Part shown: positions 1,436 through 17,122 of the stretch, in pieces
How the letters are laid out: every line of letters starts with the position of its first letter
Position numbering within the stretch: position 1 is the first letter of the stretch
NCBI GenBank assembly: GCA_035512495.1
Contig: DATKDW010000062.1
Span: forward strand, 1 to 50,956
Direction of reading: 5' to 3'
Length of the DNA: 50,956 bases
Source: Acidimicrobiales bacterium
Lineage (GTDB): Bacteria > Actinomycetota > Acidimicrobiia > Acidimicrobiales > CADCSY01
The notes under the pieces: model-generated
Told to the model about the DNA's origin: nothing
What the model saw: the letters and a program-made list of their open reading frames with translations, nothing else
Databases searched by the model: none
Translations under genes and position numbers: made by a program

Positions 1436-2539
1436 TCAGAGGCGGGTCGGGGGGGCGGTGCGGGGGCGGGCGAAGCGACCGATCCCGCGGGACGGCGCGC
1501 TGATGATCGATGCCTCGGCGGTGGTGGTGGCGGCCGCGGCCGCTGCCGTGCCCGAGCCCCCGAGGGAACCGAGGAGGCGGGGCGCCCGCACCGGCTGCGA
1601 TCCGAGCCAGAACAGGGCACCAGCGATGGCCATCAGGGTGAGGACGGCGGCGACCTGGGCGGTGCGGCTCTCGTCGGTCAGCGGAGCCTGCTGGGCGGTG
1701 GGCGTGCCGGAGCCGCTGCCCGGGACAGGGGGCGCGGCGATGGCGTCGTCGTCACCGTCGTCCGGGACCTCGACCGGAGGCGCCGGATCGACCGAGAAGT
1801 CGCCCGACGAACCGCCGCCGGACGGGACGGGGCTCGGCCCGGGGTCGAAGCTGAAGTCACCACCCGACGAGCCGCCGCCGTCGCTGGGCTCGAAGCCTTC
1901 ACCGGAGTCGAAGTCGTCGTCGAAGTCGAAGTCGGAGTCCGAGCCGAAGTCGCCGTCGAAGCTGCCGGGACCCATCAGGGTCTCCTCGTCGGGCGCCTCG
2001 AAGGTGATCGAGAACGACGGCGCCCCGTCACGAGGGAGGAGCACCACGTCGATGCCACCGTCGGCGACGACAGACTCCGAGATGAACCAGGTCATCTCCT
2101 GGCCATCCGGTGAGAGCACCCCGGTGCTGGCGCCGTCGCAGTTGGCCTCGGGACGGTCCTCCCACGCGCCGTTCTCCACCGGCTCCCAGTCCGACGTGGC
2201 CGGGCACGCCACGATCTCGGGTGGCTCCCCGGGCGCGGCGAGGGTCGTGCCGGCAACCCGAAGCAGCAGGGTGGCGTTGCCGACGTCGTCGGAGAAGCGC
2301 ATGGCAGAGATGGCCACGTGGCCGCTCGGGTCGTTGGCCACGTAGAGCCCACCGTCGGGGACCGGCACCGGTGGCGGCAGCGGGGCCGCGCCCAGGAGAC
2401 CCGCCTTCGCCTTGTACCACCAGCCGGACTCGGTCGGCGCCTCGGCGCCGGCGGGCATCGGCATGGCCACCACCCCGGCGAGGCCGATGCAGACCACCGC
2501 GGCCAGACGGCAGCTGCGCTGGATCATGCGGGCGGTCAT
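1436..2539 (-). CDS. Unknown exported, C-terminally anchored Asp/Gly/Ser-rich protein of the liv operon
   Basis: I do not recognise the family. The 367-residue protein has an N-terminal signal peptide (about 1-32). A folded-looking domain of about 150 residues follows, beginning with a WWYKAKAG segment and rich in V/I strands. Then comes a low-complexity linker with runs of D, G, S and P. A single membrane helix (about 315-335) precedes a basic tail. The layout suggests an extracytoplasmic domain held near the membrane. The ATG at 2539 overlaps the stop of the fused ATPase gene as ATGA, so it is probably translationally coupled to the transporter. An accessory role for that transporter is inference. 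Confidence 0.72.
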   Translation of the reverse strand: MTARMIQRSCRLAAVVCIGLAGVVAMPMPAGAEAPTESGWWYKAKAGLLGAAPLPPPVPVPDGGLYVANDPSGHVAISAMRFSDDVGNATLLLRVAGTTLAAPGEPPEIVACPATSDWEPVENGAWEDRPEANCDGASTGVLSPDGQEMTWFISESVVADGGIDVVLLPRDGAPSFSITFEAPDEETLMGPGSFDGDFGSDSDFDFDDDFDSGEGFEPSDGGGSSGGDFSFDPGPSPVPSGGGSSGDFSVDPAPPVEVPDDGDDDAIAAPPVPGSGSGTPTAQQAPLTDESRTAQVAAVLTLMAIAGALFWLGSQPVRAPRLLGSLGGSGTAAAAAATTTAEASIISAPSRGIGRFARPRTAPPTRL

Positions 2540-4413
2540 CGGCCGGACGCCTTCAGCGGCTTGCGCCGCCCCGTGGCCTGTTCGGGGGTCACGTCGTCGT
2601 CTCGCACGGGTGCACCCTTTCGATCGGCCTTCGCCGTGGAGCCGGTGTCGTCGCCGGCCGCGCGCTCGCTCGCCGAGGTGCCGGTGGCGGCACCGGAGCG
2701 GTTGATGATGTCGACGTCGCCGCCGAGGTAGGACGATACGACCCGCGGGTCGTTGATGACCACGTCGGGCTCGCCCTCGGACATCACGGAGCCGAGCTCC
2801 AGGGCGATCAGGCGGTCGGACACCGAGGTGATCAGCGGCATGTCGTGCTCGATGACGAGCAGGGCGCACCCGGTCTCGCGCTGGATGCGCTTGAGGAGCG
2901 GCCCCAGGGCCTCGGTCTCCTTCTGGGCCACGCCGGACGAGGGCTCGTCGAGGAGCAGCACAGCGGGGTCGTGAGCGATCGACATGGCAAGGTCGACGAT
3001 GCGACGGCTGCCGGTCGAGAGCTCCGAGACGAACTTGTCGCGGAAGGCGCTGAGGCTCATCAGCTCGATGAGGTCGTCGACGGTGTAGGCGACGTCCTCC
3101 TCGGACTCCTGCATGGCAGGGAGGGCGAGAAGAGCAGCGAGGTGGTCACGCACCTCGATGTGGCGCTCGAGGCCGAGGGCGATGTTCTCGGCGACGGTGA
3201 GCGACGGGAAGATGCGCGCGTCCTGGAACGACCGGCCGAGACCGGCCATGGCGCGGCGGTCGGCGCCCCAACCGGTGATGTCGACGTCGTCGAGGCGGAT
3301 CCGACCTCCGTCGAGGGCCAGCAGCCCGGAGATGAGGTCGAAGATGGTGGTCTTGCCGGCACCGTTGGCCCCGATGAGCCCGATCGTCTCGCCCTTGTGG
3401 AGGGTGAAGCTGACGTCGTTGACAGCGGTGATGCCGCCGAAGCGCTTGGTGAGGCCGTCGACCTGGAGCGCAGGCTCGGTGGAGATCGGAACAGCGCGCG
3501 TGGCGGAGGCCGGCACCGGGGCGCCGGTCGCGGACACCTCACCCTCGACCCCTGCGGCGTCGTCGGCACCGGAGAGGAACACCGCCCGGAGGATGTCGCC
3601 CCGGGAGAGCAGCTCCTCGGGCTTGCCGGAGAACCGGACCTCGCCCTTCTCCATGAAGTACGCCTTGGTGGCGATGGTGAGGGCCACGTTCACCGACTGC
3701 TCCACCAGGATGATCGTGCACCCCGAGGCGTGGATCTCGCGGACGATGCCCAGCAGCTGCTCGACGATGGTCGGCGCCAGCCCGAGGGAGAGCTCGTCGA
3801 TGATGAGCAGCTTGGGCTTGGCGACGAACGCCATGCCCACGGCCAGCTGCTGCTGCTCACCGCCGGAGAGGTTGCCGGCCATCTGGTCCCAGCGCTCCCG
3901 GAGGCGGGGGAACTGATCGAGGACCTCCTCGATGCGGGCCTTGACGTCGGCGGGGTCGTCGTTGGCGTAGAGCCAGGTGCTGGCCTTGAAGTGCTCGGCC
4001 ACCGTGAGGGTCGGGAACACGGCCTTGCCGCCGGGCACCTGGACGATGCCCATCTTGGCGGCGTCGACGGCACCCACCCGGGAGATGTCGTTCCCGTCGA
4101 AGGTGATGGTGCCGCCGATGGGCGTCACCAGGCCCGAGATGGCCTTGAGGAGGGTCGACTTGCCGGCGCCGTTGGTGCCGAGCAGGGCCACGATCTCGCC
4201 CTGCTGCACGTCGAGGTCGACCCCGAAGAGCACCTGCACCTTGTCGTAGGCCACCTCGACGCCCCGGCACGACAGCAGCGGGGCTTCGCCTTCGGCCGGG
4301 GCCGATTCGCGCCCGGCGGGCACGTCGATGGGGGTGGTGGGGTCTGGGTCGACGGCCACGCTGCCGGCCTCGCTCGTGGCCTGGCCCTCGGCCCCTCCCT
4401 TGCGCAGCCTCAT
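2536..4413 (-). CDS. Fused LivF-LivG double ATPase of a branched-chain amino acid-type ABC transporter
   Basis: One 625-residue polypeptide holds two complete ABC domains. The first (about 45-280) is LivF-like: Walker A GTNGAGKST at about 79, signature LSGGEQQQ, Walker B followed by DELSLGLAP, and the LivF-typical LVEQ switch. The second (about 325-570) is LivG-like: Walker A GANGAGKTT, a degenerate signature LSTGSRR, Walker B LLLDEPSSG and the H-loop IEHDM. A charged tail of about 50 residues ends the protein. LivF and LivG are normally separate chains; no stop codon separates them here. It powers the fused permease encoded just upstream, whose stop overlaps this ATG (ATGA at 4410-4413). Substrate class (amino acid, urea or other) is not determined. 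Confidence 0.93.
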   Translation of the reverse strand: MRLRKGGAEGQATSEAGSVAVDPDPTTPIDVPAGRESAPAEGEAPLLSCRGVEVAYDKVQVLFGVDLDVQQGEIVALLGTNGAGKSTLLKAISGLVTPIGGTITFDGNDISRVGAVDAAKMGIVQVPGGKAVFPTLTVAEHFKASTWLYANDDPADVKARIEEVLDQFPRLRERWDQMAGNLSGGEQQQLAVGMAFVAKPKLLIIDELSLGLAPTIVEQLLGIVREIHASGCTIILVEQSVNVALTIATKAYFMEKGEVRFSGKPEELLSRGDILRAVFLSGADDAAGVEGEVSATGAPVPASATRAVPISTEPALQVDGLTKRFGGITAVNDVSFTLHKGETIGLIGANGAGKTTIFDLISGLLALDGGRIRLDDVDITGWGADRRAMAGLGRSFQDARIFPSLTVAENIALGLERHIEVRDHLAALLALPAMQESEEDVAYTVDDLIELMSLSAFRDKFVSELSTGSRRIVDLAMSIAHDPAVLLLDEPSSGVAQKETEALGPLLKRIQRETGCALLVIEHDMPLITSVSDRLIALELGSVMSEGEPDVVINDPRVVSSYLGGDVDIINRSGAATGTSASERAAGDDTGSTAKADRKGAPVRDDDVTPEQATGRRKPLKASGR

Positions 4414-6623
4414 GAAGACCCCTTCCCGGTGCCCGAGCCGGTGAGCTCGCGCTCGCTCCACTCGAGCTCCTCGGCGTGGTGCTGCGCGTCTTCCATGATG
4501 TGGTCCTGGTCGCTGGTGTCCTCGACCATGCGGTCGGCGACGAGGGAGGGCACGAGGATGTCGTGCTTGGCCGCCACCCATCGCAGGTAGCGGTCGCGCA
4601 GCTGGTAGCCCGCCTGGGCAAAGCCTCCGGGCAGGAACAACAGGATCAGCAGGAGGCCCGGCCCGGTGACGAGGAAGGAGATCCCCGTGAGCCTCGGTTC
4701 GCCGAAGAGGCTCACGGCCTCGATCACCACCGCGCCGGCCACGGCCCCCGGTAGCGAGGTGAGCCCGCCGATCACGGTGGCGACGAAGACCTGGATGCTC
4801 GGCACGAGACCGTAGGTCGAGGCGTCGACGGACTGGCTCTGGTACACCTGCAGCACCCCGGCGATCCCGGCGATGGCCCCGGCAACGGCGAAGGCCGCCA
4901 GGCGGGTGCGGACCAGGTTCATGGCGTAGGCCGGCGCGGCACGTTGGTTGTCGCGGGTGGCGATGAGGACCCGACCGCTGCGGTTCTTCCGGAAGGATCG
5001 GGCCGCCAGCAGCACCAGCACCAGGAACACGACGCACAGGTAGTAGTAGTTGCGCTCCGGCGCCAGGTCGATGCGCTCCCAGAGGATGGGCCGCCCGACG
5101 CGGGCGTTGGCCTGACTCGGCAGGATCAGCTGGCCGATCGCGTAGTTCCGCTTCAGGAAGTAGAACTGCACCGCGCCGGCGAACGACAGGGTCGTGACCG
5201 CCAGGAACAGGCCCTGGATCCGCACCGCGGGGATGCCCACCACGATGGCGATGGCCGCCCCGGCGAGGGCGCCGGCGATCACGGTGGTGAAGAAGTCCTG
5301 GTTGAAGTCGGTCGCCAGCTTGCCTGCGACCACGGCGCCGGCACCCACGATGGCGAACTGCCCGAGGCTGATCTGGCCCGCCCAACCGGTGAGGATCACC
5401 AGGGAGACGGCGACGATGGCGGTGATGGGGATGGTGCTGAGCTTGGCGACCTCGCCGGCGCTGACCATGAGGGGGGCGAAGAGCACGAGGGCCAGCAGGA
5501 GGCCGGCGAGCACCCAGCGCCCCACCACCACCTCGCGCACGTTGCGCAGCTCGGTGGGGACGGGACGGAACTCCTTGAGCGACTGCCAGGTCGAGACGCC
5601 GGCGTCGTAGGCCCGCGACAGGCTCCCCCGCTGGAACAGGAGGGCACCGAGGATGAACGCCAGCATGATGGCGGCGGCGAGGTCGGAGGAGCCGGTGGCC
5701 GCGACCGAGCTCTGCTCGAGGACCCCGACAGCGAAGCCGGCGACCACCGCGAGGGGGATGCTCTCCATCCGAGCGATCACGGCCGCTGCGAGGGCGAAGA
5801 GGAGGACGGTGTAGCCGAGGCTGCCGTCGACGGGGACGCCGACGAGCGGCGAGCGGAGGAAGATGGTCATGGCCCCGAGGAGCCCGGCGATCATCCACGA
5901 GACCGTCTGGACCCGCTCGACCGGGATGCCGAGCAGCGAGGCGCGGTCGGCGTTCTCGGCCGACGCCCGCAGGGCGATGCCGATGCGGGTGAACCGGAAG
6001 AACAACGCCAGGCCGGCGGCGAGGGCCACGACGGTGACCACCGAGAAGATGTAGTCGCCGTTGAGGAGCAGGTTGTTGGTGGCGGTGTTGACCTGGAGAT
6101 CGGTCCACGGCGTGGTGACGCCGGAGCTGATGTCCTCGCGCCCCAGCCAGATGGGGATGTACAGCGCCACGAAGGCCAGGATCTGGGCCACGCCGATGGT
6201 GGCCACGGTGAGGATGAGGCGGGGAGCCTTGGAGAAGCGCCGGATCACCACGACGTCGGTGAGCCCGCCGAGGCCGAGGCCGCCGACGATGGTGATGGGC
6301 AGGGCGACGAAGTACGGCACGCCCTTGAGCACCATGAGCAGGACGGCGAGGATCGCCGGGACGGCGCCGATGGCGGCGGCGGCGAAGTTGATGATCCGGT
6401 TCGTGCGGTAGATCAGGATGATGCCCACGGCGACGAGGCCGTAGAGCGACCCGCTGGCGACCCCGAACAAGAAGAGGCTCAGGGGCGGCGAGAACGCCAC
6501 CTGCACGCCGAGGACGAACAACACGACGACGAGCGCGAAGCGCCCCGCCTTGGCCACGGGGTTGTCCGCCCGGGCCGCGGCGAGCACCTCGCCGAGCGGG
6601 GCCGGGAGCGCGGGGGCGCTCAT
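4410..6623 (-). CDS. Fused LivH-LivM permease of a branched-chain amino acid-type ABC transporter
   Basis: This 737-residue membrane protein joins two permease domains that are normally separate. The N-terminal LivH-like part (about 1-330) contains the stretch GSLYGLVAVGIILIYRTNRI and a RASAENADRASLLGI coupling loop. The C-terminal LivM-like part (about 355-690) contains GWAGQISLGQFA, GLFLAVTTLSFA and an RDNQRAAPAYAMN loop. The last 60 residues are acidic and cytoplasmic-looking. It forms the membrane channel that pairs with the fused double ATPase, so the whole transporter could be built from one copy of each chain. The ATG at 6623 overlaps the stop of the binding-protein gene (ATGA), and its stop overlaps the ATPase start. 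Confidence 0.94.
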   Translation of the reverse strand: MSAPALPAPLGEVLAAARADNPVAKAGRFALVVVLFVLGVQVAFSPPLSLFLFGVASGSLYGLVAVGIILIYRTNRIINFAAAAIGAVPAILAVLLMVLKGVPYFVALPITIVGGLGLGGLTDVVVIRRFSKAPRLILTVATIGVAQILAFVALYIPIWLGREDISSGVTTPWTDLQVNTATNNLLLNGDYIFSVVTVVALAAGLALFFRFTRIGIALRASAENADRASLLGIPVERVQTVSWMIAGLLGAMTIFLRSPLVGVPVDGSLGYTVLLFALAAAVIARMESIPLAVVAGFAVGVLEQSSVAATGSSDLAAAIMLAFILGALLFQRGSLSRAYDAGVSTWQSLKEFRPVPTELRNVREVVVGRWVLAGLLLALVLFAPLMVSAGEVAKLSTIPITAIVAVSLVILTGWAGQISLGQFAIVGAGAVVAGKLATDFNQDFFTTVIAGALAGAAIAIVVGIPAVRIQGLFLAVTTLSFAGAVQFYFLKRNYAIGQLILPSQANARVGRPILWERIDLAPERNYYYLCVVFLVLVLLAARSFRKNRSGRVLIATRDNQRAAPAYAMNLVRTRLAAFAVAGAIAGIAGVLQVYQSQSVDASTYGLVPSIQVFVATVIGGLTSLPGAVAGAVVIEAVSLFGEPRLTGISFLVTGPGLLLILLFLPGGFAQAGYQLRDRYLRWVAAKHDILVPSLVADRMVEDTSDQDHIMEDAQHHAEELEWSERELTGSGTGKGSS

Positions 6624-8540: not shown

Positions 8541-8556
8541 GGTGATATTCGTCACG
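8541..8556. promoter_or_regulatory. CRP/FNR-family-like operator upstream of the liv-type operon
   Basis: GGTGATATTCGTCACG contains GTGA-N6-TCAC, the core of CRP, GlxR and related cyclic-nucleotide regulator sites. It lies 125 bp upstream of the binding-protein start and overlaps the stop codon of the CNNM gene. Two more sites of the same type precede the peptide transporter operon at 11098 and 11133. No convincing -35/-10 pair was found to fix its position relative to a transcript start. Confidence 0.55.
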
Positions 8557-9598
8557 TGTCGTGGTCGTGCTCGTCGTGCTCGTCGCGGATGTCTCCCACC
8601 AGCTCCTCCAGCACGTCCTCGAGCGTGACGATACCGGCCGTCGTGCCCGTATCGGAGACCACCAGCGCGAAGTGGAGCCGGGCACGGCGCATGGCGCGCA
8701 GCAGCGCCTGCAGCTCCTGGTCCTCGGGGACGACGAGCATCCGGCGGAGCAGCCCCGGAGGCAGGGGACGGCGACGGCCGACCTCGGGCAGCTCGAGGAG
8801 GTCCTTGGCGTGGACGAAGCCGAGCACGTCGTCGAGCGACCGCCCGAAGACCGGCAGCCGGGAGTGGCCGCTGTCGAGCACCACCTCCTCGACCCGCTCC
8901 ACCGACGCCGCCGCCCCCACGGCCACGACCTGCTCGCGCGGGATCATCACGGCGGAGACGGGCCGCGCGGCGAATGCCAGCGCGCCGCTCATCAGGCGGT
9001 GCTCGACCTCCTCGAGGAGCCCCTCCCGGCGGGACACCGCGAGCATGGTCGCGATCTCCTCACCGGTGTGGGCGACGATCAGCTCGTCGGTCGGCTGCAC
9101 ACCGAGGAGCCGCAGGCCCACGTTGGCCGCGGCGTTGAGGGCGACGATGAGCGGGCGGAAGGCGACCGTGTAGGCCCGCATCGGCAGCGCCAGCCAGAGC
9201 GCCGACCGCTCGGGCTCGGCGATGGCGATGTTCTTCGGGACCATCTCTCCGAGGACCATGTGCAGGAACACCACGATGGTGAGCGCGATGACGAAGGCGA
9301 TGGTGTGCGTCGCGGCGGCCGGCACCCCGAGCGCCTCGATCGGCCCCTCGAGCAGCCGGGCGACCGCCGGCTCGGCCACGAAGCCGAGACCGAGCGACGC
9401 CATCGTGATGCCGAGCTGGGCAGCCGAGAGCATGAAGGAGAGGTCCTTGACCGCCGACTCGGCGGCACGGGCACGGGGGTCGCCACCGGCGGCGAGCTGC
9501 CCCATGCGCGCGCCGCGCACGGCCACCAGGGCGAACTCGGCGGCCACGAAGAACGCATTGGCGGCCAGGAGCAGGACGGCGACGGTGATGGCCCCCAT
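8552..9598 (-). CDS. CNNM/HlyC-CorC family membrane protein lacking the C-terminal CorC domain
   Basis: A 348-residue protein with an N-terminal CNNM (DUF21) transmembrane domain (about 1-175; motifs NAFFVAAEFALV, MVLGEMVPKNIAI). A pair of CBS domains follows (about 200-335; ISDSG-like LDSGHSRLPV, and FALVVSDTGTTAGIVTLEDVLEELVGDI). It ends in a His/Asp-rich tail instead of the usual CorC_HlyC domain. Family members are linked to Mg2+/Co2+ efflux or cation homeostasis; the exact ion is unknown here. The ATG at 9598 overlaps the stop of the upstream CNNM gene as ATGA, so the two paralogues are an operon and may form a heterodimer (inference). Confidence 0.9.
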   Translation of the reverse strand: MGAITVAVLLLAANAFFVAAEFALVAVRGARMGQLAAGGDPRARAAESAVKDLSFMLSAAQLGITMASLGLGFVAEPAVARLLEGPIEALGVPAAATHTIAFVIALTIVVFLHMVLGEMVPKNIAIAEPERSALWLALPMRAYTVAFRPLIVALNAAANVGLRLLGVQPTDELIVAHTGEEIATMLAVSRREGLLEEVEHRLMSGALAFAARPVSAVMIPREQVVAVGAAASVERVEEVVLDSGHSRLPVFGRSLDDVLGFVHAKDLLELPEVGRRRPLPPGLLRRMLVVPEDQELQALLRAMRRARLHFALVVSDTGTTAGIVTLEDVLEELVGDIRDEHDEHDHDT

Positions 9599-10932
9599 CA
9601 GCGCCTCCCCCGGTCGAGGCCGTCGTCGCCCGGGGGGCGCGCCGGCGAGGGCGCGGCGACGCGCAGCGAGGCGATGCGCCGGCGCTCGAGCTCGAGGACC
9701 TCCAGCTCCCAGCCCTCGTGGTCGACCCGCTCACCGGGCACCGGCAGGTGGCCGAGGCGATCGAGCACGAACCCCGCAACCGTCTCGTAGGGGCCGGCGG
9801 GCAGCACCAACCCCGTCACTGCCGCGACCTCGTCGAGGTGCAGGGACCCGTCGACGACCGTGGTGCCCGTCGGCAGCGAGCTCGTCAGGCTCGGCTCAGG
9901 CGGGTCGTGCTCGTCGGCGATCTCGCCGACGATCTCCTCGAGCAGATCCTCGAGGGTGAGGATCCCGGCCACGCCGCCGTACTCGTCGAGGACGACCGCC
10001 AACGGGATGCCCTCGGCGCGCATCTCGGTGAGCAGCGACTCGAGGTCGCGCCCCTCGGGGATGAAGAGTGGCGGCCTGCTGACCGCGGTGACGGGGGTCG
10101 TCGCCCGCTGGGCAGCCGGCACCAGGAGGACGTCCTTGGCGTGGGCCACGCCCACGATGTCGTCCCGATCGGCCCCCTCGACCGGGAAGCGGGAGTGCCC
10201 GGTCTCGACCGCCTGGCGGCTGAGGTCGGCGACGGTGGCCTCGACCGGCAGGGTCACCATGTCGACCCTCGGCACCAGCGCACCGGCCGCGTTCATCTGG
10301 CCGAAGCGGATGGTGCGGGCAAGCAGGTTCGCGGCGTCGGCATCGAGGGTCCCCTCCTCGCCCGACGACCGGATCAGCAGCTCGATCTCCTCGAGGCTGC
10401 GCACCGAGCGCAGCTCGTCCCGAGGTTCGATGCCGATGCGGCGGACGGTCGCGTCGGCGGCCCCGTTGAGGAACCGGATCAGCGGCCCGAACACGGCGGT
10501 GTAGGCGCGGAGCGGACCTGCCAGCGCCAGGCTGGTCGGAAGCGGATGGGCGATGGCCAGGCCCTTCGGGATCAGCTCGCCCATCACCATCTGGACCACG
10601 GTTGCGATCAGCAGCGCGAGGGCAATCGAGGTGGCAGTGCGGTTTCCCTCGGGGAGGGCGCCGAGCATCGGCCGGATGGCCCTGGCGATGGTGGGTTCGG
10701 CGACGAAGCCGAGCACGAGGGAGGTGACCGTGATCCCCAGCTGAGCGCCGGAGAGGTTGAACGAGAGGCGGCCCAGGGCGGCGGCTGCCCGCCGCGCCCG
10801 ACGACCGCCGACGGCGGCGAGGACCTCGACGCGCTCACGGTCGACGGCGACGAGGGCGAACTCGGCGGCCACGAAGAAGGCGTTGGCCAGGATGAGCAGG
10901 GCAGCAGCGGCCAGGCCGAGCGCGATGTCGAT
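9598..10932 (-). CDS. CNNM/HlyC-CorC family membrane protein, probable ATC start codon
   Basis: A full-length member (444 residues with the proposed start): CNNM membrane domain with ANAFFVAAEFALVAVDRER, MVMGELIPKGLAI, two CBS domains (ETGHSRFPV; VLDEYGGVAGILTLEDLLEEIVGEI), and a C-terminal CorC_HlyC domain (about 350-430) missing from its partner. The frame has no ATG, GTG or TTG between an in-frame TAG at 10963-10965 and a GTG at 10872. That GTG would remove the first membrane helix. ATC at 10932 starts the expected N-terminus and has GGAGG ten bases upstream, so I used it. A sequencing error is the other explanation. The role is probably divalent-cation transport or sensing with the downstream paralogue. 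Confidence 0.85.
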   Translation of the reverse strand: MDIALGLAAAALLILANAFFVAAEFALVAVDRERVEVLAAVGGRRARRAAAALGRLSFNLSGAQLGITVTSLVLGFVAEPTIARAIRPMLGALPEGNRTATSIALALLIATVVQMVMGELIPKGLAIAHPLPTSLALAGPLRAYTAVFGPLIRFLNGAADATVRRIGIEPRDELRSVRSLEEIELLIRSSGEEGTLDADAANLLARTIRFGQMNAAGALVPRVDMVTLPVEATVADLSRQAVETGHSRFPVEGADRDDIVGVAHAKDVLLVPAAQRATTPVTAVSRPPLFIPEGRDLESLLTEMRAEGIPLAVVLDEYGGVAGILTLEDLLEEIVGEIADEHDPPEPSLTSSLPTGTTVVDGSLHLDEVAAVTGLVLPAGPYETVAGFVLDRLGHLPVPGERVDHEGWELEVLELERRRIASLRVAAPSPARPPGDDGLDRGRR

Positions 10933-11097
10933 GGTGGTGCGACCTCCGGGAAAGCCCCGAGACTAGCGCTGCCACGCAGGCGGAGAGACGGGCTACGTCC
11001 GGCGTCACCCGAACGGACCATCTCCGGCAGATCCGGAAGAGGCAGCACCTCCAGATGGCGCACCATCGCCGACGGAGGCAGTACGATCCGCCTCCGT

Positions 11098-11113
11098 CGT
11101 GACGGCGGTCACC
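11098..11113. promoter_or_regulatory. CRP/FNR-family-like operator, upstream copy
   Basis: CGTGACGGCGGTCACC contains GTGA-N6-TCAC. Its centre is 35 bp upstream of the centre of a second, fully consensus-like site at 11133-11148. Both sit in the 286-bp region between the divergent CNNM genes and the peptide transporter operon. Confidence 0.5.
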
Positions 11114-11132
11114 GCCGACGCACGGCCCGCGG

Positions 11133-11148
11133 TGTGACCCCAGTCACA
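11133..11148. promoter_or_regulatory. CRP/GlxR-like operator matching TGTGA-N6-TCACA exactly
   Basis: TGTGACCCCAGTCACA is a perfect 6-bp-arm dyad and matches the classic CRP consensus TGTGA-N6-TCACA. GlxR and mycobacterial CRP in actinobacteria use the same half-sites. It ends 11 bases before a TATACT hexamer, so it would cover the -35 region of that promoter. Whether binding activates or represses cannot be told from sequence. Confidence 0.65.
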
Positions 11149-11159
11149 GGCGCGGTTCC

Positions 11160-11165
11160 TATACT
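11160..11165 (+). promoter_or_regulatory. Candidate -10 element of the peptide transporter operon
   Basis: TATACT lies 53 bases before the GTG start of the binding lipoprotein and matches the TATAAT consensus at five of six positions. No good -35 is seen; the CRP-like dyad occupies that place, which would suit a regulator-dependent promoter. Confidence 0.45.
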
Positions 11166-11218
11166 CCGACCGGGCGACCGTCCGGTCGGCCCGACGAACC
11201 AACACCAGGGGGACCCAC

Positions 11219-12916
11219 GTGGTCACACGACGCGCCGGATCGGCGTCATCACCATTCATCCGACTCCTCGCTCTGCTCGTCTCGCTCGGCCTGCTGGCGG
11301 CGGCCTGCGGCGGCGACGACGGCGGCGGCGACGACACCGGCGCCACCGCTGACGGCGACACGCCCACCACCGCGGCGCGCGACGAGGGCGAGCCCCAACA
11401 GGGCGGCTCCATCACCGTCGGCCTCGAGGCCGAGACCGCCAACTGGCTGCCGAGCACCGGCAACTGGGCTTCCTCCGGCTACAACGTGGCCTACACGCTC
11501 TACGACCCGCTCATGGCCGGCTCCGAGGGCGGCGAGGTCCTGCCGTTCCTGGCCGAGAGCCTCGAGCCCAACGACGACCTGACCGAGTGGCAGCTCACCC
11601 TCCGCGGGGGGGTCACCTTCCACGACGGCACGCCGCTCAACGCCGAGGCCATCGCCCACAACCTCGGGATCAACAAGGGCGAGACCTCCGTGCTCTCCGG
11701 CGCCCTCGCCAGCGTCGAGACCTTCGAGGTCACGGGTGAGCTCACCGGCACCTACCGGCTGTCCGAGGGCTCCGCCGCCTTCCCCGACCGCCTCACCTCG
11801 GCGGCGGGCATGCCCTTCTCGCCCACCGCGTACGACGCCGACACCGACGGCTTCGCCGACAACCCCGTCGGCACCGGCCCCTACCAGTTCGTGTCCTGGA
11901 GCCGTGACGACCGCCTGGTCGTGGAGCGCTACGACGGCTACTGGCAGGAGGGCCTGCCCTACCTCGACGAGATCACCTTCCGGCCCATCCCCGATGAGGA
12001 CACCCGGCTCCAGAGCCTCCTCTCCGGCGACGTCGAGGCCATGACCACGCTGCGCCAGAGCATCGTGCGCCAGGCCCTCGACGCCGAGGAGCAGGGCACC
12101 ATCGAGACGACGCTGTTCATCGGCAACAACGGTGGTGGCGCCATCTACAACGTCAACAAGCCGCCAGTCGACGACGCCCGGGTCCGCCTGGGCCTGGCCC
12201 ACGCCCTCGACCAGGAGGGCCTCGTCGACGTGCTGGGCGGCACCGGCATCACCCCGCCGCAGACCCAGTACTTCAGCCCCAACAGCCCGTTCTTCTCGGA
12301 GGCGGTCGACGAGGCGTGGCCCAAGCTCGACGAGGACCGCTCCCGCGAGCTGCTCGACGAGTACGTCAACGACCCCGAGCGCTCCGACGGCAAGGCCGTC
12401 GGCGCACCCATCTCGGTGGAGTTCAACTGCCCGCCCGACCCCAGCCTCATCGAGCTGGCCCAGGCGTACCAGGCCTTCTGGACCAACGTCGGCGTCGAGG
12501 TGTCGCTGAACCAGGTCGAGCAGGCGGTCCACATCCAGAACGCCTTCGCCGAGGACTACATGATCAACTGCTGGCGGATGGGCGGCGAGGCTGACCCGTA
12601 CAACGTCCTCAACGACGCCTTCGGGAGTACCGAGAACCCGCTGAACTTCACCAACTACACCAACCCGGTGATCAACGAGAACCTCGAGATCCTTCGCACG
12701 GAGACCGACCCGGACACCCGGTTCGAGGCCGCCGAGGCGATCATGCTGCACTTCGCCGAGGCAGTGCCGAACCTCTGGACGGGCGGCACGGCGACCGTGA
12801 TCGCCACCATCCCGGAGATCAACAACGTCGGCGGGTGGACCCTGCCCGACGGCACGCGCGGCACGGGCACGCCCGACGCCGTCACCCGATGGGGCGCTGT
12901 CTGGATCGACCAGTAG
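11219..12916 (+). CDS. Peptide ABC transporter substrate-binding lipoprotein (SBP_bac_5 family)
   Basis: The extracytoplasmic solute receptor for the peptide-type ABC system encoded directly downstream. The 565-residue protein has a lipoprotein signal (hydrophobic segment then LLAAAC, cysteine at about residue 30), a Gly/Asp-rich spacer, and a DppA/OppA-like domain. Recognisable pieces include WQLTLRGGVTFHDGTPLNAE and VGTGPYQFVSWSRDD. The GTG at 11219 follows an AGGGGGA ribosome site by a few bases. It is the first gene of the SBP-B-C-D-F operon and lies behind two CRP-like operators and a TATACT hexamer. The ligand could be a peptide, nickel complex or other solute; sequence alone does not decide. 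Confidence 0.93.
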   Translation: MVTRRAGSASSPFIRLLALLVSLGLLAAACGGDDGGGDDTGATADGDTPTTAARDEGEPQQGGSITVGLEAETANWLPSTGNWASSGYNVAYTLYDPLMAGSEGGEVLPFLAESLEPNDDLTEWQLTLRGGVTFHDGTPLNAEAIAHNLGINKGETSVLSGALASVETFEVTGELTGTYRLSEGSAAFPDRLTSAAGMPFSPTAYDADTDGFADNPVGTGPYQFVSWSRDDRLVVERYDGYWQEGLPYLDEITFRPIPDEDTRLQSLLSGDVEAMTTLRQSIVRQALDAEEQGTIETTLFIGNNGGGAIYNVNKPPVDDARVRLGLAHALDQEGLVDVLGGTGITPPQTQYFSPNSPFFSEAVDEAWPKLDEDRSRELLDEYVNDPERSDGKAVGAPISVEFNCPPDPSLIELAQAYQAFWTNVGVEVSLNQVEQAVHIQNAFAEDYMINCWRMGGEADPYNVLNDAFGSTENPLNFTNYTNPVINENLEILRTETDPDTRFEAAEAIMLHFAEAVPNLWTGGTATVIATIPEINNVGGWTLPDGTRGTGTPDAVTRWGAVWIDQ

Positions 12917-12967: not shown

Positions 12968-13924
12968 GTGGCACGGATGATCGGCAAGAAGGTCTTGGCG
13001 CTCATCCCCATCATGCTGGCGGTGTCGTTCTTGACCTTCTTCCTCCTCAACCTCCTTCCCGGGTGCGTGGAGTGCCAGGTCCTCGGGCCCCAGGGGGTCA
13101 CGCCCGCCGCCCTCGAGGCGGTCCGGGCCGACCTCCGGCTCGACGACCCCCTGCCCGTCCGGTACATCGGGTGGCTGGGCGACGCCCTCCAGGGTGACCT
13201 GGGCCGCTCCTACCAGACCCGCCAGGAGGTCAGCACCGCCATCATGGAGCGGCTCCCGGTGACCGTCGAGATCGCCGTGGTCTCGCTCCTGATGAGCCTC
13301 GTGGTGGCCATCCCGCTCGGGGTCCTCACCGCCTACCGGGCCGGTGGACCCTTCGACAAGGTGGTCACCGGCACCACCTTCGGGCTCCTCTCGATCCCGA
13401 ACTTCATGATGGCGCTCCTGTTGATCTACGTCTTCGCCGTCCGCTACGGGTGGTTCCCGGCCACCGGGTGGACGCGGCTCACCGCCGACCCGGTGGGCAA
13501 CCTCCGGTCGGTCTTCATGCCTGCGTTCGCCCTCGCCACCGCCAACGTGGCGGTCTTCACCCGCCTGCTGCGCACCGACATGATCGCCACGCTGCAGGAG
13601 GACCACGTGATGCTGGCCCGTTCCAAGGGCCTGCCCACCTGGAGGATCCTGCTGCGCCACGCCCTGCGGCCATCGTCGTTCTCGCTGCTGACGGTGGCCG
13701 GCCTCACCGTGGGCAACCTCCTCGGCGGGGCCGTGATCGTCGAGGAGATCTTCGCCCTCCCGGGCATCGGCCGCCTCCTGCTCAGCTCGATCTTCCAGCG
13801 CGACCTGCTGATCGTCCAGGGCGTGGTCCTGCTCATCACCATCGCCTACGTGGTCGTGAACTTCACGGTCGACATCCTGTACTCGTTCCTCGACCCCCGG
13901 ATCCGACAGGGAGGCCGTCACTGA
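12968..13924 (+). CDS. Peptide ABC transporter permease, DppB/OppB type
   Basis: Inner-membrane permease of the peptide transporter, 318 residues, about the normal family length. It begins with a membrane helix (VLALIPIMLAVSFLTFFLLNL), has the large external loop, and carries the cytoplasmic coupling loop EDHVMLARSKGLPTWRILLRHALRP. It ends with DILYSFLDPRIRQGG, typical of the family. An unusual CVEC pair sits just after the first helix. The GTG at 12968 is preceded by GAGGAG seven bases upstream. The gene ends with TGATG overlapping the DppC start. Confidence 0.94.
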   Translation: MARMIGKKVLALIPIMLAVSFLTFFLLNLLPGCVECQVLGPQGVTPAALEAVRADLRLDDPLPVRYIGWLGDALQGDLGRSYQTRQEVSTAIMERLPVTVEIAVVSLLMSLVVAIPLGVLTAYRAGGPFDKVVTGTTFGLLSIPNFMMALLLIYVFAVRYGWFPATGWTRLTADPVGNLRSVFMPAFALATANVAVFTRLLRTDMIATLQEDHVMLARSKGLPTWRILLRHALRPSSFSLLTVAGLTVGNLLGGAVIVEEIFALPGIGRLLLSSIFQRDLLIVQGVVLLITIAYVVVNFTVDILYSFLDPRIRQGGRH

Positions 13925-14925
13925 TGTCCGACTCCACCCCCCCCGGGCCCGGCCCTGACGGCACCCCGCCCAGCGCCGACGGCGTCGACGGATCGCTCCA
14001 CCTCTCCGACCAGATCGACCGGGAGCGCGACGAGTCCGAGCTCAGCGAGCTCGCCGGCCAGGCGCCGGTCCCCAGGATCCCCGCAGCCAAGAAGGACAAG
14101 CTCAAGCGCAAGGCACGCGGCATCGTCTTCTGGCTGGCGCTGGGTTGGATCGGCGTCGTGGTCTTCGTGGCCGTGTTCGCCAACGTCCTCCCGTTCCGTG
14201 AGCCCAACGACATCTTCATCACCGACAAGCTCTCGACGCCCGGACAGAACGGCTACGTGCTCGGCACCGACGGGCTGGGTCGCGACATCCTCTCCCGGCT
14301 GGCGTTCGGCGCCCGTGTGTCGCTGATCATCAGCCTCTCCGCCGTCGGCATCGGCATCGTCGTGGGCGGCACCCTCGGGATGATGGTGGGCTACTTCCGG
14401 GGCAAGTTCGAGCTCGGTGTGATGGCGGCGATCGACATCATCCTCGCCTTCCCCGGCCTCATCCTGCTCCTCGGCATGGTTGCGTTCGTGGGCCAGAGCC
14501 TCACCGCCATCACGATGGTGGTCGGCTTCCTCTCGATCCCGGTCTACGCCCGCGTGGCCCGGGGCACCACCCTGGCCGTCGCCCAGCGGGAGTACGTGCT
14601 CGCCGCCCGCGCGATGGGCGCCAGCAACACCCGGATCCTCTTCCGCGAGATCATGCCCAACGTGATCCTGCCGGTGGCCGCCTTCGGGCTCGTCGCCCTC
14701 GGGATCATCATCGTCCTGGAGGGATCGCTGGCCTTCCTGGGCCTGTCGGTGCAGCCCCCCGACGCCACCTGGGGGTCGATGATCGCCGAGGGCAAGCGCC
14801 ACCTGAGCAGGACCACCCACGTGGCCCTGATGCCCTCCCTCGTGATGTTCCTCACCGTGCTCTCGGTGAACTTCGTGGGCGACAGCCTCCGCAGCCGCTT
14901 CGACGTCAAGGAGTCCAGCCTGTGA
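13924..14925 (+). CDS. Peptide ABC transporter permease, DppC/OppC type, with long acidic N-terminus
   Basis: Second permease subunit, 333 residues. The first 65 residues are an acidic, Pro-rich cytoplasmic extension, longer than usual. They are followed by five or six helices, the GTDGLGRDILSRLAFGARVSL segment typical of DppC, and a coupling loop (YVLAARAMGASNTRILFREIMPN). The ATG at 13924 shares one base with the DppB stop, and its own stop overlaps the DppD GTG (GTGA). The pair DppB-DppC forms the channel. Confidence 0.94.
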   Translation: MSDSTPPGPGPDGTPPSADGVDGSLHLSDQIDRERDESELSELAGQAPVPRIPAAKKDKLKRKARGIVFWLALGWIGVVVFVAVFANVLPFREPNDIFITDKLSTPGQNGYVLGTDGLGRDILSRLAFGARVSLIISLSAVGIGIVVGGTLGMMVGYFRGKFELGVMAAIDIILAFPGLILLLGMVAFVGQSLTAITMVVGFLSIPVYARVARGTTLAVAQREYVLAARAMGASNTRILFREIMPNVILPVAAFGLVALGIIIVLEGSLAFLGLSVQPPDATWGSMIAEGKRHLSRTTHVALMPSLVMFLTVLSVNFVGDSLRSRFDVKESSL

Positions 14926-16067
14926 GCACCCCATCCCGTCGCAGGTCTCACGGGGTGCTCCTGCCCGAGGACTCCCGGCACGCGGGCTGCCTGCTCGAGG
15001 TCGAGGACCTCAAGACCTACTTCGACACGCCCCTGGGCACCGTCAAGGCCGTCGACGGCGTCTCCTTCACGCTCGAGCAGGGCAAGACGATCGGCATCGT
15101 GGGCGAGTCGGGCTCGGGCAAGACGATCCTCTCCCGCTCGGTGATGAACCTCCTGCCCAAGCGCACCGCCATCCCCGCCGGGGGGCGCGTGCTGTTCGAA
15201 GGGCGCGACCTCCGCCAGCTCGGCACCAAGGAGATGCGCAAGATCTGGGGACTCGAGATGGCAATGGTGTTCCAGGACCCCATGACCTCGCTCAACCCCG
15301 TCGTCAAGATCGGCCGCCAGCTCACCGAGGGCCTCCGCCACCACCTCGACATGTCGAAGGGCGACGCCAACGAGACGGCGGTCGCACTCCTGCGCTCCGT
15401 CGGCCTCCCCGCCCCCGAGCGACGCCTCAACGAGTACCCCCACCAGCTGTCGGGCGGCATGCGCCAGCGCGTCACCATCGCCATCGCGCTGGCTTGCGGT
15501 CCCAAGCTGCTGGTCGCCGACGAGCCCACCACCGCCCTGGACGTCACCGTCCAGAAGCAGATCCTCGACCTGCTCCAGGCCCAGCAGCGCGACCGGAACA
15601 TGGGGATGATGCTGATCACCCACGACCTCGGGGTGGTGGCCAACCGCGCCGACGAGATCGTCGTGATGTACGCCGGGCGCGTCGTCGAGAAGGCGGCCAC
15701 CCGGACCCTGTTCAAGAGCATGCGCCACCCCTACACCGAGGCGCTCATGGCATCGATCCCCCGGATCGAGAACCCCAGCCACACCCTGCTCCAGGCCATC
15801 CCCGGGCGACCGCCCAACCTGGCCAACCTCCCCGACCGCTGCCGATTCGCCGAGCGCTGCCGCTACGCGCAGCCTCGCTGCCTCCAGGAGGACCCCGACC
15901 TGTTCCCCGCCGACGAACCCGGCCACGCCTACCGCTGCTTCTTCCCGGTGGGAACGCAGTCCGGCGCCGACGCCCTCGCCGTCAACGAGGCTGCCGGCGT
16001 CAACGCCTGCGGCACCCCTGTGTCCATCGCCGGCCTGACCGACACCGAGTCGGCGGTGACGGCGTAG
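14922..16067 (+). CDS. Peptide ABC transporter ATPase, DppD/OppD type
   Basis: ATP-hydrolysing subunit, 381 residues. ABC motifs: Walker A GESGSGKT (about 62-70), Q-loop in FQDPMTSLNP, signature LSGGMRQRV, Walker B LLVADEPTTALD and H-loop LITHDL. The C-terminal oligopeptide-transporter domain carries a cysteine cluster (CRFAERCRYAQPRC), which in this family can bind an iron-sulfur cluster or metal. The GTG at 14922 overlaps the DppC stop as GTGA. The TAG stop at 16065-16067 shares its last base with the GTG of the next gene. It works as a heterodimer with the DppF-type subunit. Confidence 0.94.
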   Translation: MSTPSRRRSHGVLLPEDSRHAGCLLEVEDLKTYFDTPLGTVKAVDGVSFTLEQGKTIGIVGESGSGKTILSRSVMNLLPKRTAIPAGGRVLFEGRDLRQLGTKEMRKIWGLEMAMVFQDPMTSLNPVVKIGRQLTEGLRHHLDMSKGDANETAVALLRSVGLPAPERRLNEYPHQLSGGMRQRVTIAIALACGPKLLVADEPTTALDVTVQKQILDLLQAQQRDRNMGMMLITHDLGVVANRADEIVVMYAGRVVEKAATRTLFKSMRHPYTEALMASIPRIENPSHTLLQAIPGRPPNLANLPDRCRFAERCRYAQPRCLQEDPDLFPADEPGHAYRCFFPVGTQSGADALAVNEAAGVNACGTPVSIAGLTDTESAVTA

Positions 16068-17122
16068 TGGCCGGCAGCGGAACCGCCCACCTCCGCGACC
16101 GCGACGACATCGTCCTGCGCGTCGAGCACCTCGTCGTCGACTTCCCCACCGCCGGCGGCAAGGTGCACGCCGTCTCCGACGTCAGCTTCGACCTGGCCAA
16201 GGGTGAGACCCTCGGCCTGGTGGGCGAGTCGGGCTGCGGCAAGTCGACCACCGGGCGCGCCATCATGCAGCTGCCGAAGCCCACGTCGGGGTCGGTGATG
16301 TTCGGCGACAAGGACCTCACCCAGCTCAAGGGCGAGGAGATGCGACGCACCCGCACGCAGCTCCAGATGATCTTCCAGGACCCCATCTCGTCGCTGAACC
16401 CGCGCCGCAAGATCAAAGACATCGTCGGCGAGGGGATCTCCATCTGGGGGAAGAAGGACGGCGGGGATGGCAAGGATGCCGATCAGCGCGTCGACGAGGT
16501 GCTGGAGGCAGTCGGCCTCGACCCCGACACCGTCGGCGACCGACGGGCCCACCAGTTCTCCGGCGGCCAGTGCCAGCGCATCTGCGTCGCCCGCTCGCTG
16601 GTGCTCGACCCCGAGATCATCATCTGCGACGAGCCCGTCTCGGCCCTCGACGTGTCGGTGCAGGCGCAGATCCTCAACCTGCTCGAGGCCATGAAAGCGC
16701 GCTACGAGCTGACGCTCATGTTCATCGCCCACGACCTCGCCGTGGTCAAGAACATCAGCGACCGGGTCGCCGTGATGTACCTCGGCAAGATGTGCGAGCT
16801 GGCCCCCTCCGACACGCTCTACGCCGAGCCCGCCCACCCCTACACCCATGCCCTGCTGGAGTCGATCCCCAAGCCCGACCCCACCGCGCTGCCGTCGGAG
16901 TTCACCCTCGGCGGCGAGCTCCCCTCACCCATCGACCCGCCGAGCGGCTGCCGGTTCCGGACCCGCTGCCCCAACGTGCAGGACCGCTGCGCTGCCGAAG
17001 AGCCGCTCATGCGCCAGGTCGGCGCCGAGCACTACGTGGCGTGCCACTTCCCCAACGTCGGGGGCGAGGCCCCGGCCTCCGCGGGGGTACCGGTCGAGGT
17101 GAACGAGCCGCCCACCACCTGA
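16067..17122 (+). CDS. Peptide ABC transporter ATPase, DppF/OppF type
   Basis: Second ATPase subunit, 351 residues: Walker A GESGCGKST, FQDPISSLNPR Q-loop, signature FSGGQCQRI, Walker B IIICDEPVSALD and H-loop FIAHDL. The C-terminal domain has the family's cysteine motif (CRFRTRCPNVQDRC). I set the start at the GTG at 16067, which shares one base with the stop of the DppD-type gene. The longer open frame upstream (from 15494) is a shadow of that gene. It completes the SBP-B-C-D-F set and ends 28 bases before the TPP enzyme, which could be on the same transcript. Confidence 0.93.
   Translation: MAGSGTAHLRDRDDIVLRVEHLVVDFPTAGGKVHAVSDVSFDLAKGETLGLVGESGCGKSTTGRAIMQLPKPTSGSVMFGDKDLTQLKGEEMRRTRTQLQMIFQDPISSLNPRRKIKDIVGEGISIWGKKDGGDGKDADQRVDEVLEAVGLDPDTVGDRRAHQFSGGQCQRICVARSLVLDPEIIICDEPVSALDVSVQAQILNLLEAMKARYELTLMFIAHDLAVVKNISDRVAVMYLGKMCELAPSDTLYAEPAHPYTHALLESIPKPDPTALPSEFTLGGELPSPIDPPSGCRFRTRCPNVQDRCAAEEPLMRQVGAEHYVACHFPNVGGEAPASAGVPVEVNEPPTT

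Follow-up and report, generated by a model that had tools for sequence, protein, structure and literature searches.

The window, i.e. the whole stretch of 50,956 nucleotides analysed here, carries the genes of two ABC importers, both accompanied by palindromes of the type GTGA-N6-TCAC. The first importer, of the peptide type, is encoded on the plus strand by an operon consisting of the gene for a substrate-binding lipoprotein (P0002; SBP_bac_5; 11219–12916), followed by those for two permeases (12968–13924 and 13924–14925, both BPD_transp_1) and two ATPases (14922–16067 and 16067–17122, both ABC_tran with oligo_HPY). The divergent spacer ahead of this operon harbours, within 11098–11148, two palindromes—TGTGACCCCAGTCACA at 11133–11148, a perfect TGTGA-N6-TCACA, as the sequence-only reading had claimed, and CGTGACGGCGGTCACC at 11098–11113, located 35 bp upstream of the former, centre to centre.

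Concerning the second importer, the gene of its putative liv-type substrate-binding protein (P0001; 6620–8416, minus strand) starts with an ATG preceded by AGGGAG, and the third palindrome, CGTGACGAATATCACC (8541–8556, minus strand), is positioned 125 bp before it, overlapping the stop codon of a CNNM/CBS gene (8552–9598, minus strand). The label "liv-type" comes only from the next genes on the same strand, encoding a branched-chain-type permease (4410–6623, with two stretches of BPD_transp_2) and an ATPase with two ABC_tran domains (2536–4461), P0001 itself having no match in Pfam or NCBIfam. The family to which it belongs comprises putative binding proteins whose linkers are rich in glycine (four in this genome and 14 in the genome G007) and is covered by no model of either database. 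It should also be mentioned that a CNNM/CorC gene on the minus strand has an apparent ATC start codon (10932–10930), nine bases past GGAGGT (10947–10942), its first ordinary start codon being found 20 codons further in, inside the conserved N-terminus; either the start codon is a rare one or the sequence contains an error here.

All three palindromes are exact at the positions given by the sequence-only reading. The sites at 8541–8556 and 11098–11113 match the eight core bases of GTGA-N6-TCAC and differ from the ten bases of TGTGA-N6-TCACA by two mismatches each, whereas the site at 11133–11148 differs by none and, according to a pattern search, has no other perfect counterpart in the genome of 2.8 Mb. 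Of the three, the 8541 site is the weakest, being one base off the extended palindrome GTGAC-N4-GTCAC. The background rate assumed in the sequence-only reading, about one copy per 65 kb, is sound, since dinucleotide shuffles of the whole window lead to an expectation of 0.80 copies, i.e. about one per 64 kb. Its account of a non-coding trio holds as well, but the window contains six copies in total, those at 14842, 37111 and 44306 having been left unmentioned; these are intragenic and were counted as background. GTGA-N12-TCAC, too, occurs six times in the window, reflecting codon-phased spacing in coding DNA of 72% GC, and because other codon-phased spacings are also common in such DNA, weight was placed only on the non-coding sites. 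The raw count of GTGA-N6-TCAC, in the window or in the genome, was dropped as evidence for the same reason and because intragenic copies dominate it.

The palindromes could, in principle, be background matches in a GC-rich genome or the product of a constraint unrelated to any regulator, as might be suggested by the 78 copies of GTGA-N6-TCAC present genome-wide, 40 of the 58 sampled ones being intragenic. The non-coding sites speak against it: three were observed, whereas none of 3000 shuffles of the window's 3840 intergenic bases reached three (the maximum being two), and the two palindromes in the promoter of the peptide operon (10946–11218) were not reproduced in any of 20000 shuffles. The extended palindrome GTGAC-N4-GTCAC, moreover, is found seven times in the genome, and all seven copies are intergenic, the non-coding share being 12% in approximately 300 kb of sampled sequence. 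As the spacing-6 palindrome also recurs upstream of homologues in other genera (see below), an origin by chance appears very improbable.

The distribution of the seven extended sites points to importers in particular. Two of them are those of the peptide importer and two precede further liv-type importers (contigs C81 and C15), so that four of the seven are located at genes for binding proteins of ABC importers; of the remaining ones, two precede glpD (C44) and an rpf-like gene (C40), and the last is flanked by a nuoF-like gene on one side and a sigma-factor gene on the other (C4). It is worth mentioning that rpf2 is a target of GlxR in Corynebacterium glutamicum (PMC3917453) and rpfA a target of CRP in Mycobacterium tuberculosis (PMC4117774). 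Enrichment at other transporter promoters, on which the sequence-only reading depended, is thus seen both as the intergenic excess and as sites before other importers, in this genome as well as in its relatives.

In the relatives, 9 of the 56 SBP_bac_5 homologues are preceded by a palindrome of spacing 6 having no more than one mismatch (0–2 for other spacings), and 9 of the 39 homologues of P0001 by one having no more than two (0–1 for other spacings). A perfect copy is present in G003, a genome of the same family, approximately 77 bp before its homologue. A homologue scan of genome contigs for footprinting returned only distant homologues from Clostridia and proteobacteria.

With regard to the regulator, the sequence-only reading presupposed a protein of the CRP/FNR family, and the genome does encode such proteins: it possesses four cNMP-binding domains, distributed over four proteins, two of which have a Crp-type HTH, together with five class III cyclase domains. 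The main candidate is P0003, encoded on contig C21, where its gene is flanked by a PIN-type gene on one side and a disA-like one (c-di-AMP synthase) on the other; a palindrome was looked for at the P0003 gene itself and none was found. Rv3676 of M. tuberculosis and GlxR are the closest to P0003 among solved structures, and in the alignment of P0003 with its orthologues both the phosphate-binding cassette and the recognition helix are conserved, the latter reading SRERVNK in P0003 and SRETVNK in Rv3676. Of the six cAMP contacts listed in PMC4005916, four are retained, the C-helix contacts T134/N135 of Rv3676 being replaced by V/D according to the alignment. Because these two contacts are not kept, and since apo-Rv3676 has been reported to bind DNA (PMC4005916), cAMP dependence of P0003 should not be assumed.

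Importer sites occur in 13 of the 24 genomes with P0003 and in none of the eight without it (Fisher p 0.007, uncorrected for ancestry), a comparison affected by the fact that the eight genomes hold more distant homologues; the co-occurrence is suggestive of a link between P0003 and the importer sites. It also bears on the other Crp/Fnr protein of this genome, Crp2 (222 aa), which might read the sites in place of P0003. The gene for Crp2 and a stand-alone cNMP-binding gene are arranged in tandem (G000:C58, L222:4988-6174), and the sequence separating the two contains a GTGA-N6-TCAC palindrome. The HTH of Crp2 is of the Crp type and possesses the R-E-R contacts known from CRP, and the palindrome following its gene, GGTGATGCACGTCACC, is similar to the sites of the window. 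Importer sites are, however, present in G003, G006 and G054, where the P0003 orthologue is the only strong Crp HTH listed, whereas importer sites are lacking in G035, which does contain a Crp HTH though not an orthologue of P0003, so we regard Crp2 as an unlikely reader of them.

Based on the shuffle excess, the presence of P0003 and of cyclases, the intergenic position of the sites, the recurrence of spacing 6 and the co-occurrence with P0003, the reading we favour, with reasonable though not full confidence, is that the palindromes are operators of the GlxR/Rv3676-type Crp-family regulator P0003 and define an uptake regulon of the CRP/GlxR family. P0003 would bind all three palindromes of the window, and its small GTGAC-N4-GTCAC regulon would cover ABC importers for peptides and for branched-chain-type solutes, glpD, the rpf-like gene and others, with a cyclic nucleotide as the presumed signal. 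The sequence-only reading had proposed shared control by a cyclic-nucleotide or an FNR-type regulator. The former part is borne out by the homologues, the intergenic enrichment and the placement at importers. The FNR operator is TTGAT-N4-ATCAA (TTGA-N6-TCAA), and the FNR-type alternative was rejected, as the window contains no TTGA-N6-TCAA.

The skeleton alone does not name the regulator, since the operators of Rex, an NADH sensor, share TGTGA-N6-TCACA, as exemplified by TGTGAACNNNTTCACA of Streptomyces coelicolor (PMC5355995). Were the sites of the window Rex operators, the importers would follow the NADH/NAD+ ratio and not a cyclic nucleotide. Rex is known to tolerate C in one half of its operator, as in that of nuoA1, TTGTGACCTGCTTCACAT (PMC5355995), and Rex-like sites precede whiB genes across the order, this genome included (G000:C58:67922-67937). 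These whiB sites, mostly TGTGAA-N4-TTCAC, are situated within the leader, a short distance ahead of the ribosome-binding site; palindromes upstream of whiB were found in 34 of 57 genomes, 13 of them being perfect (0–2 for other spacings), and they occur independently of P0003 (14 of 22 genomes without it, 20 of 35 with it) and even in genomes without any strong Crp HTH. In this genome, sites of the same A class are present also at cytochrome b operons and at nuoA. Two separate cytochrome b/ferredoxin operons (L224:6112 and L197:1816) have a nearby TGTGA-N6-TCAC[GA], either assignable to the A (Rex-like) class or of mixed type.

The two classes are separated by the base following TGTGA, which is C in 23 of 23 importer sites (21 of these also having G in the mirror position), but C in only one and A in 31 of the 34 whiB sites. 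The three sites of the window belong to the C class, the inner bases being C and G in the peptide-importer pair (11099 and 11134) and C and A in the liv-type site (8542), and all three fail to conform to the Rex operator TGTGAA-N4-TTCACA with inner A/T on both sides. Importer sites, furthermore, are confined to genomes with P0003, whiB sites being found regardless of it, and a motif scan of the examined stretches located no rex gene here; the Rex NAD motif was absent from the examined loci, which make up so small a part of the genomes that this absence has no evidential value. Control of the importers by Rex seems improbable, while the A class, judging from its motif and gene context, would be read by Rex. 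The whiB1 gene is a known target of Rv3676, and the whiB sites had been considered as support for CRP control; they were withdrawn, being equally common without P0003 and matching Rex operators. A Crp-free regulon, suggested by perfect palindromes in P0003-less genomes, was likewise discarded, since these copies are mostly intragenic, the exceptions outside genes being those at a cytochrome operon in G035, at a nuoF-like gene in G039 and a few others.

A more far-reaching proposal, which we put forward as a rather doubtful one, is that a single skeleton serves two regulators split by a single base pair—the GlxR relative acting on GTGAC-N4-GTCAC at importers and Rex acting on TGTGAA-N4-TTCAC at whiB and respiratory genes—and that the former, lacking the usual C-helix contacts to cAMP, may answer a signal other than cAMP. 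The rule suggested by the two classes is that C versus A after TGTGA may distinguish CRP-type from Rex-type sites, which the consensus TGTGA-N6-TCACA confuses. In Streptomyces, too, the Rex sites share the skeleton but have A and not C after TGTGA, are independent of P0003 and belong to respiratory and whiB genes and not to importers; the Rex targets there, wblE of the whiB family and the nuo genes, resemble those of the A class in this genome, and in Streptomyces avermitilis Rex represses wblE through an operator that lies downstream of the wblE start site (PMC5355995).

Returning to P0003 and the promoter of the peptide importer, the hexamer TATACT (11160–11165, plus strand) is, judged from its sequence, the likely −10 element, and transcription would start near 11172; no sigma-70 −35/−10 pair at this promoter passes a consensus scan. 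Relative to the predicted start, the perfect site, with its inner C and G the proposed main operator, is centred near −31.5 and the second palindrome near −66.5. Since the former spans the −35 region just upstream of TATACT, P0003 bound there would most likely block RNA polymerase, and control at this promoter is probably repressive; the second copy may strengthen the binding or permit activation at lower occupancy. In the relatives, the corresponding palindrome frequently adjoins or overlaps either a −10-like hexamer or the probable start, and such variable, promoter-covering positions would fit repression better than activation. For CRP of M. tuberculosis, binding near the start site is associated with repression and binding upstream with activation (PMC4117774).

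The type of control proposed is itself ordinary; its importance lies in bringing an uptake regulon of the CRP/GlxR type to a poorly studied lineage of actinobacteria, the host being taken for an uncultivated actinobacterium on account of its WhiB, Rpf-like and GlxR-type genes. Compared with the GlxR regulon of C. glutamicum, with its operator TGTGANNTANNTCACA (PMC4254451, PMC3917453), the regulator family, the palindrome skeleton and the presence of an rpf gene among the targets are alike, whereas the sites predicted here have C/G at the inner positions without a central TA and the regulator differs in two C-helix cAMP contacts. The CRP of M. tuberculosis (Rv3676; PMC4117774, PMC4005916) is the closest solved relative of P0003; the skeleton fits, rpfA is among its targets, as the rpf-like gene would be here, and its near-start sites repress. 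It has, however, a T-S-type pocket where P0003 has R-S, and T/N in the C-helix in place of V/D, and the sites of the present genome, unlike those of its regulon, are concentrated at importers. Finally, GTGAC-N4-GTCAC agrees with the strong motif of S. coelicolor Crp, GTG(N)6GNCAC, as quoted in PMC10033298, in having G six bases past GTG, although Crp in Streptomyces acts mainly on genes for development and antibiotics, whereas the sites predicted here are found at importers.
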